The translations under genes and the position numbers were made by a program. The notes below the pieces were generated by a model, which saw nothing but the letters and a program-made list of their open reading frames with translations, was not told the DNA's origin and did not search any database. A DNA stretch of 53,579 nt from Patescibacteria group bacterium (lineage in GTDB: Bacteria; Patescibacteriota; Minisyncoccia; Phycocordibacterales; PALSA-1337): positions 1 through 53,579 of the forward strand of contig JAGWWT010000007.1 of the NCBI GenBank assembly GCA_018970245.1, given 5' to 3'. Below are positions 22,592-34,773 of this stretch, piece by piece. Position 1 is the first letter of the stretch, and each line of letters starts with the position of its first letter.

Positions 22592-22618
22592 TTTATACCC
22601 CATATCCAGAATTGTCAA
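22592..22618 (-). promoter_or_regulatory. Minus-strand promoter for 22580-21610
   Basis: Minus strand reads TTGACA, 15-nt spacer, TATAAA followed by CC. The core GGGGTATAAACC matches the promoter at 19835. The spacer is short for sigma-70, but the -35 is perfect and the -10 nearly so. The -10 is 12 bp before the gene start, giving a very short leader. Confidence 0.5.
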
Positions 22619-22620
22619 CA

Positions 22621-22709
22621 GTGGATATGCGTGGACACCTAGTGGACAAGTCGTTCACATATACAGATACAGAGGAAGATCTTCCGCGTGGATTGGAAAT
22701 GCTGTCCAC
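22621..22709. repeat. GTGGACA repeat cluster (origin or operator candidate)
   Basis: GTGGATA at 22621 and GTGGACA at 22631 and 22642 lie as direct repeats about 10-11 bp apart, one helical turn. The inverted copy TGTCCAC is at 22703. They lie just upstream of the -35 at 22613-22618. Helical phasing suggests a protein-binding iteron array for replication initiation or repression. Confidence 0.35.
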
Positions 22710-23060
22710 GTTTCCGGGATTTCCGGATAACTGAGCCTGACGCCGCGGACAACTCGAATCAAAAATCCAGCCCCTCGATTCTTTGATAAGGGTAGAAAAT
22801 AGAAAAATTAGCGAGGGGAGGGGGTGAATTTCAGGCGGGGGCCAAAAGGGGCTGTGGGGGTACCTCGGCTGGGGCTGGTCTAGAAAAGAATTCTTGCCCG
22901 GGTGGGGTGGGGTGCAACTCACTACCAGCGCACCGGACCAGCTAACGCATTGCTGGGCGCCTGGAGCTTTCGGGGTATTGGGAGGGTGAAGACAGCGGAT
23001 CCGACTTCCGACCGTTTATAGGGCAATCCAGACCGGCAGATCGCACAATATCTGTTGTGC
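22710..23060. other. Non-coding stretch with G-rich tracts
   Basis: No gene found. Holds CCCCTCG (about 22767) pairing with CGAGGGG about 40 nt later across an A/T-rich loop, then runs of G (GGGGCTGTGGGGG and GGTGGGGTGGGG), and GCACAA-TATCTG-TTGTGC near 23043. The latter could end the minus-strand gene at 23061 but has no U-run. Open frames here are shadows. Confidence 0.4.
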
Positions 23061-23762
23061 TTAGTTCGGTGGACTTGCTACAGGCTGCTGCACAGTGACT
23101 TGCGTATCTTGTGGTATCGGCGCCGAAACCGGCTGCGATTGTACGCTACCTGTAGCGGTGTCCGGACCACAAGAGACTTGCTGAACATCCGCAGAGATTG
23201 CTATGGATGATTGCGGCTCTTGCTCATGTCCCAGGACTTCGGACATCACAACTCCGCCAACCGATTCACTTCCCCAGCCGTGGACGATCTTTGCAGAGCG
23301 GACAAGCGGCTCAAGGGCTTTGCCATACTTCCGGAGATCCTTCAGTGTGGCCTTGGGGTCAAGCTCGGCAAGCTTCCCGGCCGCTTTCTGGACGGCTTTT
23401 GCCAGCGTCTGCCGGGCTTCATTGCTTCCCGGGGTCTCTGGGCTGGGCTGGATGGACAGCACCCTCCCTTGTATTTTCTCACGGGTTTGACGGGTAGCGG
23501 CAAGCAGACTGTTCCACTTGTAGCGGTGTATCCAAGTATTCAGGGTTCTTTGCTTCACCCCGGTTTCACTGACGATGGACCCAAGCCTAATGTTTTGCAG
23601 ATACAGGGCTTTGCACCGCTCTTTAAGCTCTGGGCCATGGTCCCTGATTTTCACCGGAGTTTCACCGGTTTCAGGATTTAACTCAGTTTGTGAGTCATTT
23701 TCTGGGTCAATGTGAAACACTGTTTCAACTGTGGTTTCAGCCGTGGGCGCAGCTTCCAACAT
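23061..23762 (-). CDS. HTH protein, terminase-small-subunit-like possibility
   Basis: 233 residues. A helix-turn-helix lies at about 50-80 (CKALYLQNIRLGSIVSETGV then QRTLNTWIHRYKW), followed by a helical charged middle and a long low-complexity C-tail rich in Gln, Ser, Pro and Val. The HTH with a terminal R-x-x-W is like the N-terminal domains of small terminases, but no large terminase is beside it. A transcription regulator is the alternative. It is isolated between two non-coding regions, on the minus strand. Weak ribosome site. Confidence 0.45.
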   Translation of the reverse strand: MLEAAPTAETTVETVFHIDPENDSQTELNPETGETPVKIRDHGPELKERCKALYLQNIRLGSIVSETGVKQRTLNTWIHRYKWNSLLAATRQTREKIQGRVLSIQPSPETPGSNEARQTLAKAVQKAAGKLAELDPKATLKDLRKYGKALEPLVRSAKIVHGWGSESVGGVVMSEVLGHEQEPQSSIAISADVQQVSCGPDTATGSVQSQPVSAPIPQDTQVTVQQPVASPPN

Positions 23763-24228
23763 GCTCTGCGATATGCGGCCGGGCGCCGGTCAAGGTCAAG
23801 CTCAGACTTGCGGACCTGCCCGAATATCTCACACGCAGATTTAATTACTACGGATGTTGTGTGCTCCCAGGCTACCTAACATCCTGATTGCTTCATTCTG
23901 TGTGTTGCATGGCTTTACCTGGCATCCCTTGTGCTTTGTGGCGTGAAAGCTCAAGGATGACTTATAGGGCATTCTGTCGCCTCACTTCAATAATCGTGCC
24001 AATCTCTATAAGACGTTGATACTCCTATTGATTGTCTACTTAGCTCCTAAAATCCGGTATGATGACAGCGGATCGGGGTGCTGACGCGTTAAAAGCCTGT
24101 TTCTGTGCGTTTAAACGGCATAGAGCTTAAATAATTGTAGTTGCTATGCTTTGCATCGCTCAGCGTTTACCGTGCCAGATTGACAGTCTGCTATCACTTT
24201 ATGCCTCACATTATTTTTGATTCTCTAG
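23763..24228. other. Non-coding stretch upstream of the structured RNA
   Basis: About 465 bp without a convincing gene. A/T-richer than the flanks from about 24000 on. Contains TTGTCT and TATGAT 20 bp apart (24043-24069), a weak promoter-like pair, and CAGACTGTCAATCTG-type inverted elements around 24178. It could hold regulatory sites for the divergent 23762 gene and the downstream module. Confidence 0.4.
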
Positions 24229-24256
24229 TTGACACTCCGTAGCGTTCTGCTAGTCT
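24229..24256 (+). promoter_or_regulatory. Plus-strand promoter for structured RNA and AAA+ module
   Basis: Perfect TTGACA at 24229-24234, 16-bp spacer, TAGTCT at 24251. The -35 region TTGACACTCC resembles TTGACACCCC of the candidates at 19885 and 33582. It is the only strong promoter-like site before the module. Confidence 0.5.
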
Positions 24257-24262
24257 CTTCTC

Positions 24263-24690
24263 GGAGGTTGGAATGTTGGTGACGGGCAGAAGCCCGGGAA
24301 AGTTCTCCCGGATAGGCGCCCAGTGCTCGCAGTAATGGCGGCACCCCTTGAGCGGGGAGAAAGCTTCGGATGGCTGCGGTTGACGCCTCATCCGTTAGGT
24401 AGACCCTGGAGTAAACGGCACCGGGCTAGACTTCCGGGGATCTCAGTAAGTGGACGGTGCGCAAGGCATCGGAAGCACTCCGGCAGCAACTCGCCTCTTT
24501 ATTAATGCGGGTTGCCATAAAGCGCACTGTGGGAGCGATCGTGAGTCTGCCCGACGGCGTAAAGAAACTAAACGCGGTGACCGTGGACAAGCCTAAGCCT
24601 ACCCTAAGCCCAAAAGTAAGCGTTGTCTGACGCTGAAACGGGCATTCTTAATGCAGCCCGCGCAGCGAATACTGTGCGGCCGGTCACAAG
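24263..24690 (+). ncRNA. Candidate large structured RNA (leader or free-standing)
   Basis: About 430 nt downstream of a promoter and with no credible gene. Local helices are dense: CGGGC-AGAA-GCCCG (24283-24296, alternative with CCGGGA/TCCCGG), CCCC/GGGG (24344-24357), CGGATG/CATCCG (24367-24394), GCACC/GGTGC enclosing CCGG/CCGG (24418-24460), CAACTCGC/GCGGGTTG (24487-24514), AGCGT/ACGCT (24619-24634), CGGG-CATT-CTT-AATG-CAG-CCCG (24639-24660), CGCGCAG/CTGTGCG (24659-24678). It may be a long 5' leader controlling the module or a separate ornate phage RNA. I recognise no Rfam class. Confidence 0.45.
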
Positions 24691-24716
24691 CCCGGGGCAA
24701 TGCAGAGTGAGAAACT

Positions 24717-24728
24717 GAAAGGATCAAA
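24717..24728 (+). promoter_or_regulatory. GAAAGGATCAAA translation leader, copy 1
   Basis: GAAAGGATCAAA directly before the ATG at 24731. Core AAGGA acts as Shine-Dalgarno; the whole 12-mer recurs before 24981, 25910 and 28508. Confidence 0.6.
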
Positions 24729-24730
24729 AA

Positions 24731-24964
24731 ATGACAAAATTAACAACCGAACAGACATGGAACCTTTGCCGCGGGATGTCGTGGCCTTGGGATTACTGCG
24801 CCAGTGGGACAGCGGTCGCAAACGCTCCCGGGCTAAAGGAATGGGTTGAGCGCAGCGGTGAATATACTGTATCGCTACGCGACTGCGCCCGGGTTGCCGC
24901 CCAGATCCGCCGCGGCGCACGGATGGAGATCGGAAACGGCTTAGGACAATGCACGCTGTCATAA
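24731..24964 (+). CDS. Small protein, unknown, first gene of AAA+ module
   Basis: 77 residues (MTKLTTEQTWNLCRGMSWPW start) behind leader copy 1. Trp-rich N-terminus, then a helical Arg-rich C-terminal part (LRDCARVAAQIRRGARMEIG). No domain recognised. First coding gene after the structured RNA candidate, so its translation may respond to it. Confidence 0.65.
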   Translation: MTKLTTEQTWNLCRGMSWPWDYCASGTAVANAPGLKEWVERSGEYTVSLRDCARVAAQIRRGARMEIGNGLGQCTLS

Positions 24965-24980: not shown

Positions 24981-25289
24981 ATGAATGCAGCATGTAAGCA
25001 CAATTCAATGGTGCTCAATGACACCGATAAACCGCTGGGGCGTTTTGCTTGGCGTTGCGCTGATTGTGGCTACGTTTACGGCCGCGATTCTGAAAAACGT
25101 ATCACCCTACACCGTTCCGGCCGTTCCTGGTTTGCCAGGTTTACCGGACCTGAAGCGGAGCGCATTAAATCGCTTTTCAGCACCGATGATATTTGCACCG
25201 GGTTTATTGCGGCAGCGGACCCGGAAGAAGTGCACGCGAAGATCGCACAGCTTAACCCTGATTATTTGGTCGTCATTAACGATTTATGA
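24981..25289 (+). CDS. Small zinc-ribbon protein, unknown
   Basis: 102 residues behind leader copy 2. N-terminal CKHNSMVLND and WRCADCGYVYGRDS make a Cys/His metal site, then a strand and helix region KRITLHRSGRSWFARFTGPE and a C-terminal EVHAKIAQLNPDYLVV. ATGA overlap with the next gene. A competing +1 frame (24985-25446) was rejected. Role unknown. Confidence 0.7.
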   Translation: MNAACKHNSMVLNDTDKPLGRFAWRCADCGYVYGRDSEKRITLHRSGRSWFARFTGPEAERIKSLFSTDDICTGFIAAADPEEVHAKIAQLNPDYLVVINDL

Positions 25290-25909: not shown

Positions 25910-27493
25910 ATGGCACCAAAAACAGTCAAAAAGCATACGCCATTCCGGCAAGCCCGTAATGCTGGCGTGCCTATTGTCGCGATTGAATCGGCGGACCCGG
26001 CCGCGACAATGGACAAGTGCGCACAAGCCTTAAACGGCTCTCACGATATTACACCGCAATTGCGCTGGGATATCGTCAGGGGATTAACCCCGATCAATAA
26101 GCCGGGCGCCGTTGTGTTCTCCCGCATTGCCGGGCAATCTGAGGGAAGCGATCCAGTATTCCCGGATCCCGTTCTTTGCATGGCCAAGCTCGTGGAACAA
26201 CATGACAAGCTGTCCGTAACTCCGGAGGAGGATTGCGGTAAGCCCGATGAAGAGCAGCGGCATATTGGGTGCATCGTATACATGCTACATGCAAATCGAT
26301 GGCTTGATGAGTTGGCGCCGATGCAAGCCGTATGGAATATCCGGGACACTTGGAAAACGATCGGCTGTACGCTCGTTTTGATCGGTCCCACGATCAAACT
26401 GCCCTCTGAGCTTAAAAACGACGTTATCCTAATCTCTGAGCCGTTGCCGGGGCATGATGAACTTGATCGCATTGTCGGCCGTATCACCGGGGAAGAGGGC
26501 GCAAACCTGAAAGAGGAACAAATCGGAGATCGTGAGCTTGTGGTTGACACGATGTCCGGAACTTCGGCTTTTGGGGCGGAGCAAATTCTGTCTATGTCCC
26601 TGACTAAAGACGGGATTGACAATGATCAACTATGGGAGAGAAAGCGCAAGATGATCGAACAAACGCCGGGTCTGAAAGTGCGCAAGGTTGAAGGCACATT
26701 TGATGATCTTGGCGGAATGGAAAATCTAAAGCAGTATTTACGCGACATCTTGACTAGTGGGGTTTCGCCTATTCGCCTAATTGTCTTTCAGGACGAAATA
26801 GAAAAAGCGATCCAAGGCGCCACGGGCGGAGCGTTGGACGGCGGCACTTCAGCCGATCAATTAAAAGTTGTTTTAACGCTGATGGCCGATCGCAAAATGC
26901 CCGGCATAATCTTAGTTGGGCATGGCGGTTGCGGGAAAAGTGAGATTGCAACAGCAGCAGGAGCGATCGCTAAATGTCCCGTCATCGATTGGGACTTTGG
27001 CGCTATGAAAGAGGGAGTTGTCGGATCTTCAGAACACCGGATCCGGGAAGCCGTTGAGGTGGTAAAAGCTGTCAGCGATTGCAAGTGTCTTTTTATCGCG
27101 ACTTGTAACAAGATTGACAGCCTGCCACCAGAACTAAGGCGCCGGTACAAACTCGGCACTTTCTTTTGCGATCTTCCAACTCCGGAAGAGCAGGATAAGA
27201 TTTGGCGGATCTGGATGAAGAAGTTTTCGATCGAAAAGCAACCATTGCCCGAGTGCAACGGATGGACGGGCGCGGAGATTGCAGCGTGCTGTGAGGGCGC
27301 TTGGCGAACCGGAAAGACTTTGCGTCAAGCCTCAACTAAAGTTGTACCAGTCATTTTGAGCAACCCGGGCGCCGTCGAATCACTTCGGAAACTCGCGCAC
27401 AACTCATTTATTGATGCGAGCAAGGATCAGTATTACCAGTACTCTCCTAAGACTGTTGAACCGCAGAAAACCGGCCGCAAAATGGAGCTTTGA
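25910..27493 (+). CDS. AAA+ ATPase, Ycf46-like, with unusual motif order
   Basis: 527 residues. After an N-terminal alpha/beta domain resembling the degenerate N-part of Ycf46, the linker has FDDLGGMENLKQYLRD. Then comes a Walker-B-like block IVFQDEIEKAIQG (about 291-303) with DGGTSADQLKVVLTLMADR, and only after it Walker A GHGGCGKSEIA (337-347). Next are VVGSSEHRIREAVEVVKAV, sensor 1 FIATCN (395-400), and PPELRRRYKLGTFFCDLP (arginine finger region). Ordinary AAA+ proteins have Walker A before Walker B, so the beta3/alpha3 segment is transposed. Followed immediately by DUF1257 and DUF2997 genes, a pairing known for Ycf46/Ycf35-type sets. Substrate unknown. Confidence 0.85.
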   Translation: MAPKTVKKHTPFRQARNAGVPIVAIESADPAATMDKCAQALNGSHDITPQLRWDIVRGLTPINKPGAVVFSRIAGQSEGSDPVFPDPVLCMAKLVEQHDKLSVTPEEDCGKPDEEQRHIGCIVYMLHANRWLDELAPMQAVWNIRDTWKTIGCTLVLIGPTIKLPSELKNDVILISEPLPGHDELDRIVGRITGEEGANLKEEQIGDRELVVDTMSGTSAFGAEQILSMSLTKDGIDNDQLWERKRKMIEQTPGLKVRKVEGTFDDLGGMENLKQYLRDILTSGVSPIRLIVFQDEIEKAIQGATGGALDGGTSADQLKVVLTLMADRKMPGIILVGHGGCGKSEIATAAGAIAKCPVIDWDFGAMKEGVVGSSEHRIREAVEVVKAVSDCKCLFIATCNKIDSLPPELRRRYKLGTFFCDLPTPEEQDKIWRIWMKKFSIEKQPLPECNGWTGAEIAACCEGAWRTGKTLRQASTKVVPVILSNPGAVESLRKLAHNSFIDASKDQYYQYSPKTVEPQKTGRKMEL

Positions 27494-31228: not shown

Positions 31229-31939
31229 ATGACATTCGAGGAACTACAAAACAAAATCGGCGCACAAAATAAAGCTGATTGGCGACAATCTAAAGGCGGC
31301 GGCTGGCTTCACAAGTCGGCCAGAGTCGATGACGAAACCAGGATAACAGAGAACGCGATCGTTTTGGGTATCGTCTCCGGCAATGCGCAGGTCTCCGGCA
31401 ATGCGCAGGTCTCCGGCAATGCGTGGGTCTACGGCAATGCGTGGGTCTACGGCAATGCGCGGGTCTACGGCGATGCGCGGGTCTACGGCAATGCGCGGGT
31501 CTACGGCAATGCGCGGGTCTACGGCAATGCGCAGGTCTCCGGCAATGCGTGGGTCTCCGGCAATGCGCAGGTCTACGGCAATGCGCAGGTCTACGGCAAT
31601 GCGCAGGTCTACGGCAATGCGCGGGTCTCCGGCAATGCGCAGGTCTCCGGCAATGCGCGAGTCTCCGGCGATGCGCGGGTCTCCGGCGATGCGCTGGTCT
31701 ACGGCAATGCGCAGGTCTCCGGCGGTGCGTGGGAAAAATCCCCACTATTCATCATTGGATCCCGGTTCAGCCTGACAAACTGCAAGAAGGGGCACATTCA
31801 AATCGGTTGCGAATGCCATCCGTTCGCATGGTGGGAAGGCAAAGGCGGCAAGGAGTTGGCTAAAATGCACAGCTTTACTCCCGCAGAAATCAAGGAGTAT
31901 CGAGCCTACATCAAGCTGTTTAAGGCGATTGGAAAATGA
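31229..31939 (+). CDS. Hexapeptide-repeat beta-helix protein
   Basis: 236 residues. The N-terminal 45 are a small cap (TFEELQNKIGAQNKADWRQS), then 20 near-identical hexapeptides of form V-S/Y-G-N/D-A-Q/R/W between about residues 49 and 168, then SPLFIIGSRFSLTNCKKGHI and a C-terminal HPFAWWEGKGGKELAKMHSF. The repeats fit a left-handed beta-helix with one turn per three hexapeptides, as in YdcK- and transferase-like proteins. The C-terminal HPFAWWEG segment is an extra domain. Role unknown. The DNA repeat unit makes copy number easily variable. Confidence 0.75.
   Translation: MTFEELQNKIGAQNKADWRQSKGGGWLHKSARVDDETRITENAIVLGIVSGNAQVSGNAQVSGNAWVYGNAWVYGNARVYGDARVYGNARVYGNARVYGNAQVSGNAWVSGNAQVYGNAQVYGNAQVYGNARVSGNAQVSGNARVSGDARVSGDALVYGNAQVSGGAWEKSPLFIIGSRFSLTNCKKGHIQIGCECHPFAWWEGKGGKELAKMHSFTPAEIKEYRAYIKLFKAIGK
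31373..31732 (+). repeat. 20 tandem 18-bp repeats inside the hexapeptide gene
   Basis: Twenty copies of GTCTNCGGCRATGCGNNG-type units, in frame. Copies differ by the S/Y codon (TCC or TAC) and the third residue (CAG, CGG, TGG). Not CRISPR: there are no spacers and the unit encodes protein. High identity suggests recent expansion by slippage or recombination. Confidence 0.95.
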
Positions 31940-33631: not shown

Positions 33632-33856
33632 ATGAGCGAAAACATTCCAGACAATCTCCGCGAGCAACTTTCCCACGCCGGTAAGAAGGGCATCAAAAAG
33701 ATGTCCAACGAAGAACGCGCCAAGGGCGGGCGAAGATCCCAGCGGAAGATCCCACATGAGGAAAGAGTGCGCCGTGGAAAGCTGGCGTGGCAAGCGAGGT
33801 TGCAGAAGGCTCGTGAACTGGCGGAGAAGATGACGCAGGAGGTTAAAGCGGTATGA
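33632..33856 (+). CDS. Basic small protein, unknown
   Basis: 74 residues: MSENIPDNLREQLSHAGKKG, KGGRRSQRKIPHEERVRRGK, ending in helix ARELAEKMTQEVKAV. Very basic, Gly/Arg/Lys-rich, so probable nucleic-acid binding. First gene behind the candidate promoter, ATGA overlap to RNA ligase. Confidence 0.6.
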   Translation: MSENIPDNLREQLSHAGKKGIKKMSNEERAKGGRRSQRKIPHEERVRRGKLAWQARLQKARELAEKMTQEVKAV

Positions 33857-34773
33857 TTCATTCCTATCCTTCGATTTACAATCTCGGACACGCGGCCATC
33901 GTCGATCTTCTCAAAGGCCCAGTTATCGTCGAGGAAAAAATTGACGGAAGCCAATTTAGTTTCTGGAAGCGGGCAGACGGCGAAGTTGAATGCCGATCCA
34001 AGGGGGCGCCTATCAACATGCTGGCCCCGGAGGGAATGTTCAAGGCCGCAGTAAAGACAGTCCTAGAAATTGCCACACGAATGAGGCCGGACGTTGTTTA
34101 TCGCGGGGAATATCTCGCCGGTCCACATCACAACGCTCTGACCTATAGCCGTGTTCCAAGCGGAAACATTATCATATTTGATGTGAACCCAGGTCTTGAA
34201 ACGTACTTGGATGCAGAATCAAAGAGAAGTATGGCGGCAGAGCTTGGGCTTGAGTGCGTTCCCGTTCTGTTCATCGGAGTTGTTTCCGGAATCGAACAAT
34301 TCAGAAAACTTCTTGATACCGAATCCGTTCTTGGTGGGCAGAAAATCGAAGGCGTAGTCATTAAGCCTGCTGCTTACAATTTGTTCGGCAGGGACAAAAA
34401 GGTTTTGATGGGGAAGTTTGTATCTGAATCGTTCCGAGAGGTTCAAGCAAAGGCATGGGATTCAGAACACAGGACAAAAGGACCGCAAGAAATACTGTCG
34501 GCGCTACAGTCACGCTATGGCACATCGGCCCGTTGGAATAAAGCCCTAATCCATCTGAGAGAGCGCGGGGAAATTGAGAACGATCCTCGCGACATCGGAA
34601 AATTAATGAAAGAGGTCCCCGAAGATGTTCTCAAGGAGTGCGCTGAAGACATCAGAAAGGATTTGTTTGAGTGGGCGTGGCCGCAACTCCGGCGAATGCT
34701 AGCAAGGGGGCTTCCTGAATGGTATAAGGAAGAGCTTTTGAAGAAGCAATTCGAAAACACTACAGCGGTATGA
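33853..34773 (+). CDS. RNA ligase (T4 Rnl2-type)
   Basis: 306 residues. Motif I is VEEKIDGSQFSFW with catalytic Lys (residue about 33), followed by ECRSKGAPINM, VYRGEYLAGPHHNA (motif III), GQKIEGVVIKPA (motif IV, E-G-V-V-I-K) and a VLMGKFVSESF block (motif V). The C-terminal part is helical. It seals RNA ends, likely tRNAs or mRNAs cut by host anticodon nucleases. Starts with ATGA overlap to the previous gene. Confidence 0.9.
   Translation: MIHSYPSIYNLGHAAIVDLLKGPVIVEEKIDGSQFSFWKRADGEVECRSKGAPINMLAPEGMFKAAVKTVLEIATRMRPDVVYRGEYLAGPHHNALTYSRVPSGNIIIFDVNPGLETYLDAESKRSMAAELGLECVPVLFIGVVSGIEQFRKLLDTESVLGGQKIEGVVIKPAAYNLFGRDKKVLMGKFVSESFREVQAKAWDSEHRTKGPQEILSALQSRYGTSARWNKALIHLRERGEIENDPRDIGKLMKEVPEDVLKECAEDIRKDLFEWAWPQLRRMLARGLPEWYKEELLKKQFENTTAV

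Follow-up and report, generated by a model that had tools for sequence, protein, structure and literature searches.

Organization of the locus

The window, that is, the whole stretch of 53,579 nt analysed here, reads as a phage contig (C76, in a genome bin of 1.4 Mb and 101 contigs) and encodes a DnaB-type helicase, a terminase-small-subunit-like protein and an AAA+ ATPase. A protein with about 20 tandem copies of the short repeat GNAxVYGNAxVSG is encoded at nt 31229–31939. The region under study, nt 24229–24730, is located between a minus-strand gene starting at nt 23762 and a plus-strand operon starting at nt 24731. As stated in an earlier sequence-only reading of this DNA, no credible ORF was found in it on either strand, the longest being a 60-codon GTG frame (plus strand) and a 61-codon frame (minus strand). 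The features assigned in this work, all on the plus strand, were as follows.

24229–24256: putative sigma-70 promoter (tentative), with TTGACA at 24229–24234, a 16-nt spacer and a weak -10 box, TAGTCT, at 24251–24256
24257–24649: candidate conserved structured non-coding RNA of about 390 nt; 5′ end approximate, 3′ end at the predicted twister cut
24263–24281: 5′ strand of a predicted closing stem, GGAGGUUGG......GGUG, paired in the consensus fold with 24600–24611
24284–24295: conserved hairpin GGGC/GCCC, 2 compensated pairs
24342–24359: conserved hairpin CACCCC/GGGGAG, 1 pair varying on one side
24367–24394: conserved hairpin CGGAUGG..UCAUCCG, followed by invariant AGGUAG, 4 compensated pairs
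24411–24494: segment of about 84 nt missing from the relative G119, as judged from the alignment
24541–24592: conserved long hairpin with an inner GGCGNAANGNAACUA..CGC arm, 4 compensated pairs
24600–24611: 3′ strand of the predicted closing stem, UACCCUAAGCCC, invariant
24622–24639: small hairpin just 5′ of the cleavage site, 1 compensated pair
24645–24713: type-P1 twister self-cleaving ribozyme (RF03160), with cleavage predicted at U24649/A24650; T1 pairs CAC 24685–24687 with GUG 24707–24709
24718–24723: Shine-Dalgarno sequence AAAGGA of the first gene, which stays on the downstream cleavage product
24731–24964: first operon ORF, encoding 77 aa and assigned to no family
25910–27493: AAA+ ATPase (phrog_8638; Pfam AAA, PF00004), of the module led by the RNA

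The promoter had been called perfect in the sequence-only reading. This was true of the -35 hexamer, whereas the best -10 hexamer, TAGTCT, matched the consensus at 3 of 6 positions and a consensus promoter scan listed no promoter. In the related phage G119, TTGACT is located 32 nt upstream of the same conserved TCTCGG as in the window. At its 3′ end the region runs, as had been noted, into the leader motif of the first gene: the ribosome-site motif aaaggatcaaa, which recurs before the ATGs at nt 24981 and 25910, closes it just 5′ of the ATG at nt 24731.

A type-P1 twister ribozyme upstream of the operon

In a permissive Rfam scan, nt 24645–24713 matched RF03160 over the full length of the model (positions 1–68) with 61.2 bits, at an E value of 3.8e-13 over 1.1 kb searched locally and 1.9e-11 over the whole 53.6-kb window. 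The element was absent from the default-threshold scan because this score lies under the curated gathering cut-off of 67.2 bits. That cut-off is a curation threshold and not a functional feature, and of 29 RF03160 matches obtained from 20 records, namely 19 virus records plus the genome to which the window belongs, 26 likewise fell under it. The window copy has P1, P2 and P4, with its termini in P1, and the conserved core UAA..GC.GCC, CGGUC-CAAGCCCG and GAG-G.

The T1 pseudoknot does not contribute to the Rfam score and so provided an independent test. In 116 of 117 distinct phage twisters, N of GGUC-N-CAAG was complementary to N′ of GAG-N′-G (81 A-U, 22 C-G, 8 U-A and 5 G-C pairs); T1 of the window twister was intact, its varying pair being A-U. 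Twisters are known to cleave at U-A, and P1 is dispensable (PMC5408937, PMC6154101); on this known chemistry, and from the U-A lying in conserved context, the cut was predicted at U24649/A24650. As judged from sequence and pairing, nt 24645–24713 is thus a type-P1 twister, a known ribozyme class, for which self-cleavage is predicted. The earlier statement that the region matches no known class does not hold for these last 70 or so nucleotides.

Apart from twister-P1, the only Rfam hit in the window was a tRNA gene elsewhere. No Rfam family was found for nt 24257–24649, whether at gathering thresholds or with the limit relaxed to E 10 in the local scan and E 1 in the scan of the whole window. 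The comparison with long non-coding RNAs and introns proposed in the sequence-only reading gave no covariance-model match to ROOL, GOLLD or OLE at gathering thresholds, at E of 10 or below locally or at E of 1 or below window-wide, and none to a group I or group II intron catalytic core in the Rfam scans.

Position of twisters in phage operons

Two pattern scans of IMG/VR, yielding 32 and at least 120 stretches, were used to survey phage twisters. A same-strand gene was located upstream of 97 of 106 mapped twisters, which lay at a median of 29 nt past its stop codon, and a same-strand gene was located downstream of 97 of the 106. A ribosome site and start codon followed within 120 nt in 86 of 117 twisters (median 28 nt); of 585 random positions, 158 were followed in this way. 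The usual phage twister is therefore one that punctuates operon mRNA in a tight gap. Because most of the 106 are placed in this way, a long conserved non-coding stretch before a twister is unusual; at least 250 nt of non-coding DNA precedes only 16 of them, with the window and G119 among the longest. An enrichment of bacterial twisters near genes of Mu-like phages is already known (PMC10085705).

Where two twisters were separated by a few hundred bases, the DNA between them mostly contained one or two small protein genes. Paired twisters were considered as a sign of an excised non-coding RNA and dropped, the interval being mostly a small protein gene, with one exception (L166, see below). In another locus (L092), four twister-pattern matches were observed within 1.3 kb on the minus strand (3310, 3787, 4143 and 4567).

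Conservation of the upstream RNA in phage G119

Folded alone, the window RNA was no more stable than its dinucleotide shuffles (z -0.32 for 473 nt, z -0.09 for 393 nt), the minus strand folded unremarkably too, and single-sequence folding was rejected as support. The G119 RNA alone was mildly stable (z -1.95). The evidence for structure comes instead from comparison. G119 (IMGVR_UViG_3300050821_002279; locus L160), a distant relative of the window phage, was found through a capsid-protein search, and its AAA+ homologue shares 53% identity with that of the window. A twister is located at the same place, so that the order RNA, twister, AAA+ gene is common to both phages. The window RNA matches G119 in three separate blocks, upstream of and across the twister, indicating homology over the length of the RNA. 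The alignment runs from TCTCGGAGGTTGGANTGTNGGTGA at the 5′ end through several hairpins to TGGGAGCGAT...GGCGNAANGNAACTA...TACCCTAAGCCC, the twister and the ribosome site.

Folding the two sequences together gave a consensus of 17 helices, the twister's own among them, with 21 pairs compensated on both sides; these pairs were counted on a structure derived from the same alignment and from one comparison of two phages. None of 500 shuffles reached 21, and no more than 2 compensated pairs remained when the partners were slid by 1–3 columns. Because the fold had been derived from this very pair of sequences, folding energies were measured against column shuffles and against further aligned parts of the two phages. 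The alignment upstream of the twister gave z -4.4 to -5.3 against column shuffles, which do not keep dinucleotide content; coding blocks served as the empirical baseline, and two genes of these phages, on both strands, gave z +0.6 to -2.8. The adjacent upstream non-coding region gave -0.95 and +0.53. The sequence-only reading had counted at least eight helices from one sequence, which by itself folds like its shuffles; support for helices came from the comparison with G119, in line with the search for covariation that it had proposed. On these data the stretch before the twister appears to be a new conserved structured RNA, present in two phages and absent from the RNA catalogue searched.

The individual hairpins are well supported, above all those at nt 24367–24394 and 24541–24592, and the overall closure is not. 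Both strands of the predicted closing stem are invariant in the two phages and hence give no covariation, and its 3′ strand could instead pair with UUAGGUA at about nt 24395–24401 (UUAGGUA-UACCCUAA pairing). The consensus fold has an energy of -116 kcal/mol versus -145 kcal/mol for the minimum-energy fold of the window sequence, so that the conserved helices cost about 29 kcal/mol.

The same comparison bears on two other explanations. In one, the twister alone would matter, punctuating mRNA as elsewhere, and the DNA upstream would be an ordinary divergent promoter or control region with no function as RNA. The abundance of twister-P1 in phage operons, the unremarkable single-sequence fold, and a position between divergent genes with conserved DNA blocks further upstream would suit it; we nevertheless regard it as improbable, given the compensatory changes before the twister and the contrast between z -4.4 to -5.3 there and -0.95/+0.53 in the adjacent control region. 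In the other, a small protein would be encoded in a missed frame, the candidate being the 60-codon GTG frame at nt 24323–24505. Stop codons break all six frames in the window RNA, those of G119 are broken elsewhere, and the alignment shows the 84-nt insertion as well as conserved blocks that keep to no reading frame, which leaves this explanation with next to no probability. The protein in a corrected frame that the sequence-only reading had named as evidence against an RNA was thus not found.

Further relatives of the window RNA were sought in several ways. DNA similarity gave no match in annotated phages; a DNA pattern of the 5′ motif and a search with the 347-aa downstream protein each returned G119 as the only relative. 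Covariance models of the window RNA (R2 and R3) matched the window and G119 alone among 79 loci, and R3 matched only the window itself (G000) in 60 genomes.

Large RNAs in other phages of the AAA+ family

Searches for the AAA+ family with alignments yielded about 86 loci in viral contigs and nothing in genome contigs; searches with a single protein returned nothing in either. At the operon heads of five of these loci (L214, L202, L201, L221 and L209), a different structured RNA of about 770 nt was found with 36 compensated pairs (L214:2227–3002, L202:2400–3090, L201:2175–2910 and L221:2386–3125). Its covariance model (R1) detected nine loci at E 5e-22 or better, including L203, L204, L206 and L211, and gave no match on the window or G119; no Rfam match was obtained for the scanned members L214 and L211. 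In L168, a highly stable RNA of about 360 nt (2575–2935, z -5.84) is located behind a TATAAT box at the operon head with no twister, and the non-coding gaps of L192 and L178 folded with z -7.6 and -4.0, respectively. No convincing match to a non-ribozyme Rfam family was obtained for the scanned operon-head RNAs.

In a third AAA+ phage (L166, genome G126), two twisters at 2380–2884 bound about 394 nt of non-coding DNA upstream of the AAA+ operon; this interval is without relatives, and its fold is no more stable than expected by chance (z -0.32). Of 51 loci compared, 16 had a long non-coding gap before the AAA+ gene and 7 had one after it, a difference that is suggestive only. Taken together, these RNAs, which are unrelated in sequence to that of the window and not established as one family, are suggestive of large RNAs recurring at AAA+ operon heads. 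A broader proposal, that a large, fast-evolving RNA is common at the operon head of phages with phrog_8638, where a twister sometimes frees it, and that RNA and ATPase form one ribonucleoprotein system, seems doubtful to us.

In one AAA+ phage (L193), a long non-coding region opens with an rRNA-type boxA-like sequence (AGTTCTTTAACAACTGAATA) at L193:663. Leaders of this type serve antitermination of untranslated RNAs. The boxA-like leader was strong in L193, weak in L166 and absent from the window.

Proposed release of the RNA by the twister

The order of elements in the window, namely a promoter, a closed RNA domain, a short hairpin, a twister, a ribosome site and an operon, as predicted from sequence, fits a ribozyme-made separation of RNA and mRNA. 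In the mechanism proposed, transcription from near nt 24257 would yield the folded RNA of about 390 nt followed by the AAA+ operon mRNA, and the type-P1 twister would cut this transcript at U24649/A24650. The folded RNA would then be released as a separate non-coding RNA with a 2′,3′-cyclic phosphate at its 3′ end, while the operon mRNA would keep a 5′-hydroxyl end capped by the folded ribozyme body, with the ribosome site a few bases on. We assign a probability of roughly 0.55 to this reading, in which the twister frees a large phage non-coding RNA from the AAA+ operon mRNA; from sequence we infer cleavage in the cell, stability of the released RNA and its action as an RNA in its own right.

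This release is backed by the twister match, the T1 covariation, the conservation in G119 and the shared order of RNA, twister and AAA+ gene, by the non-coding interval of L166 that is also bounded by twisters, and by the precedent of theta ribozymes beside phage tRNAs (PMC10879173). It is weakened by the restriction of the RNA to two phages, the invariant closing stem and a consensus that is not the minimum-energy fold, as well as by the lack of relatives or excess stability for the L166 interval and a twister score below the Rfam cut-off. The single RNA of about 430 nt in the sequence-only reading was therefore correct in placing a conserved structured RNA before the AAA+ module, whereas its 3′ sixth is the twister, and the transcript is better described as an RNA of about 390 nt, a ribozyme and an mRNA. 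Overall, the earlier observation was partly confirmed and its interpretation partly supported.

The main rival, possible and clearly less probable, is that the folded RNA acts in cis as a riboswitch- or attenuator-like leader of the AAA+ operon, with the twister trimming or conditioning the mRNA 5′ end and the RNA playing no part apart from the operon. The RNA directly precedes the operon and shares its strand, no terminator was found between the two, and most phage twisters (86/117) have a ribosome site and start codon 20–40 nt downstream. Moreover, the consensus fold contains a conserved CUC/GAG pairing of the RNA 5′ end (24258–24262) with the twister (24705–24709), which could switch the ribozyme off. 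However, cleavage would part such a leader from the mRNA under its control, the predicted closed domain ends about 38 nt before the cut, and the large RNAs of other AAA+ phages are unrelated in sequence, unlike what would be expected of sensing one shared ligand.

Engineered circular RNAs are made with flanking twisters, a model for a different fate in which an RNA ligase would close the cleaved RNA into a circle or rejoin it. The interval in L166 does have a twister on each side, and the window phage encodes an RNA_ligase-family protein (nt 33853–34773; PF09414, E 1.5e-14). We consider this fate highly improbable, since only one twister is present in the window and in G119, the 5′ end appears to be made by a promoter, and searches of G119, G126 and G128 gave no ligase homologue. 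A coupling of the ligase with the ribozyme was rejected because the ligase is not conserved in G119.

Comparison with known systems

The nearest published precedent for release of the RNA by the twister is the theta ribozyme, an HDV-like element that cuts beside phage tRNAs and has been proposed to mature them, mainly on the basis of genomic position and in vitro cleavage (PMC10879173). In both cases a small self-cleaving phage ribozyme is proposed to make the 3′ end of an upstream structural RNA. The window, however, has a twister rather than an HDV-like ribozyme, the upstream RNA is large and unclassed rather than a tRNA, and with a type-P1 twister the ribozyme body stays on the mRNA 3′ of the cut. 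Compared with other type-P1 twisters (RF03160), the window copy is typical in its full-length match with P1, P2, P4, core and T1, and differs in following a long conserved structured RNA instead of lying in a tight gap between two genes.

ROOL and GOLLD are likewise long structured phage non-coding RNAs, of unknown function (PMC12286853). The window RNA matched neither of their Rfam models and is shorter (about 390 nt); a ribozyme comes after it, and it stands at the head of an AAA+ operon instead of a tRNA island. The glmS ribozyme-riboswitch, a self-cleaving regulator in a 5′ UTR (PMC6154101), is similar in that the leader before a coding sequence contains a self-cleaving ribozyme, whereas the window ribozyme is of an unrelated class with no known ligand or regulated cleavage. 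The roles of twisters in bacteria and phages being largely open, making the end of a phage non-coding RNA would be a role that can be tested here. Given a second, well-supported RNA that is unrelated to the first and located at its head in related phages, the AAA+ operon is also a place to seek new large RNAs and partner proteins.

Other conserved non-coding sequences

Upstream of the RNA, nt 22593–22710 are largely non-coding, share 82% identity with G119 and contain repeated GTGGAC/GTCCAC motifs; this sequence could be a replication origin or a control region. Two further non-coding blocks, nt 23961–24005 (TTATAGGGCATTCTGTCGCC...) and 24058–24103 (TATGATGACAGCGGATCGGGG...), are located upstream of the RNA promoter and are 89% identical to G119. 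Comparison with G119 revealed no conserved RNA fold in these two blocks on either strand, and they are possibly control sites for the divergent genes.
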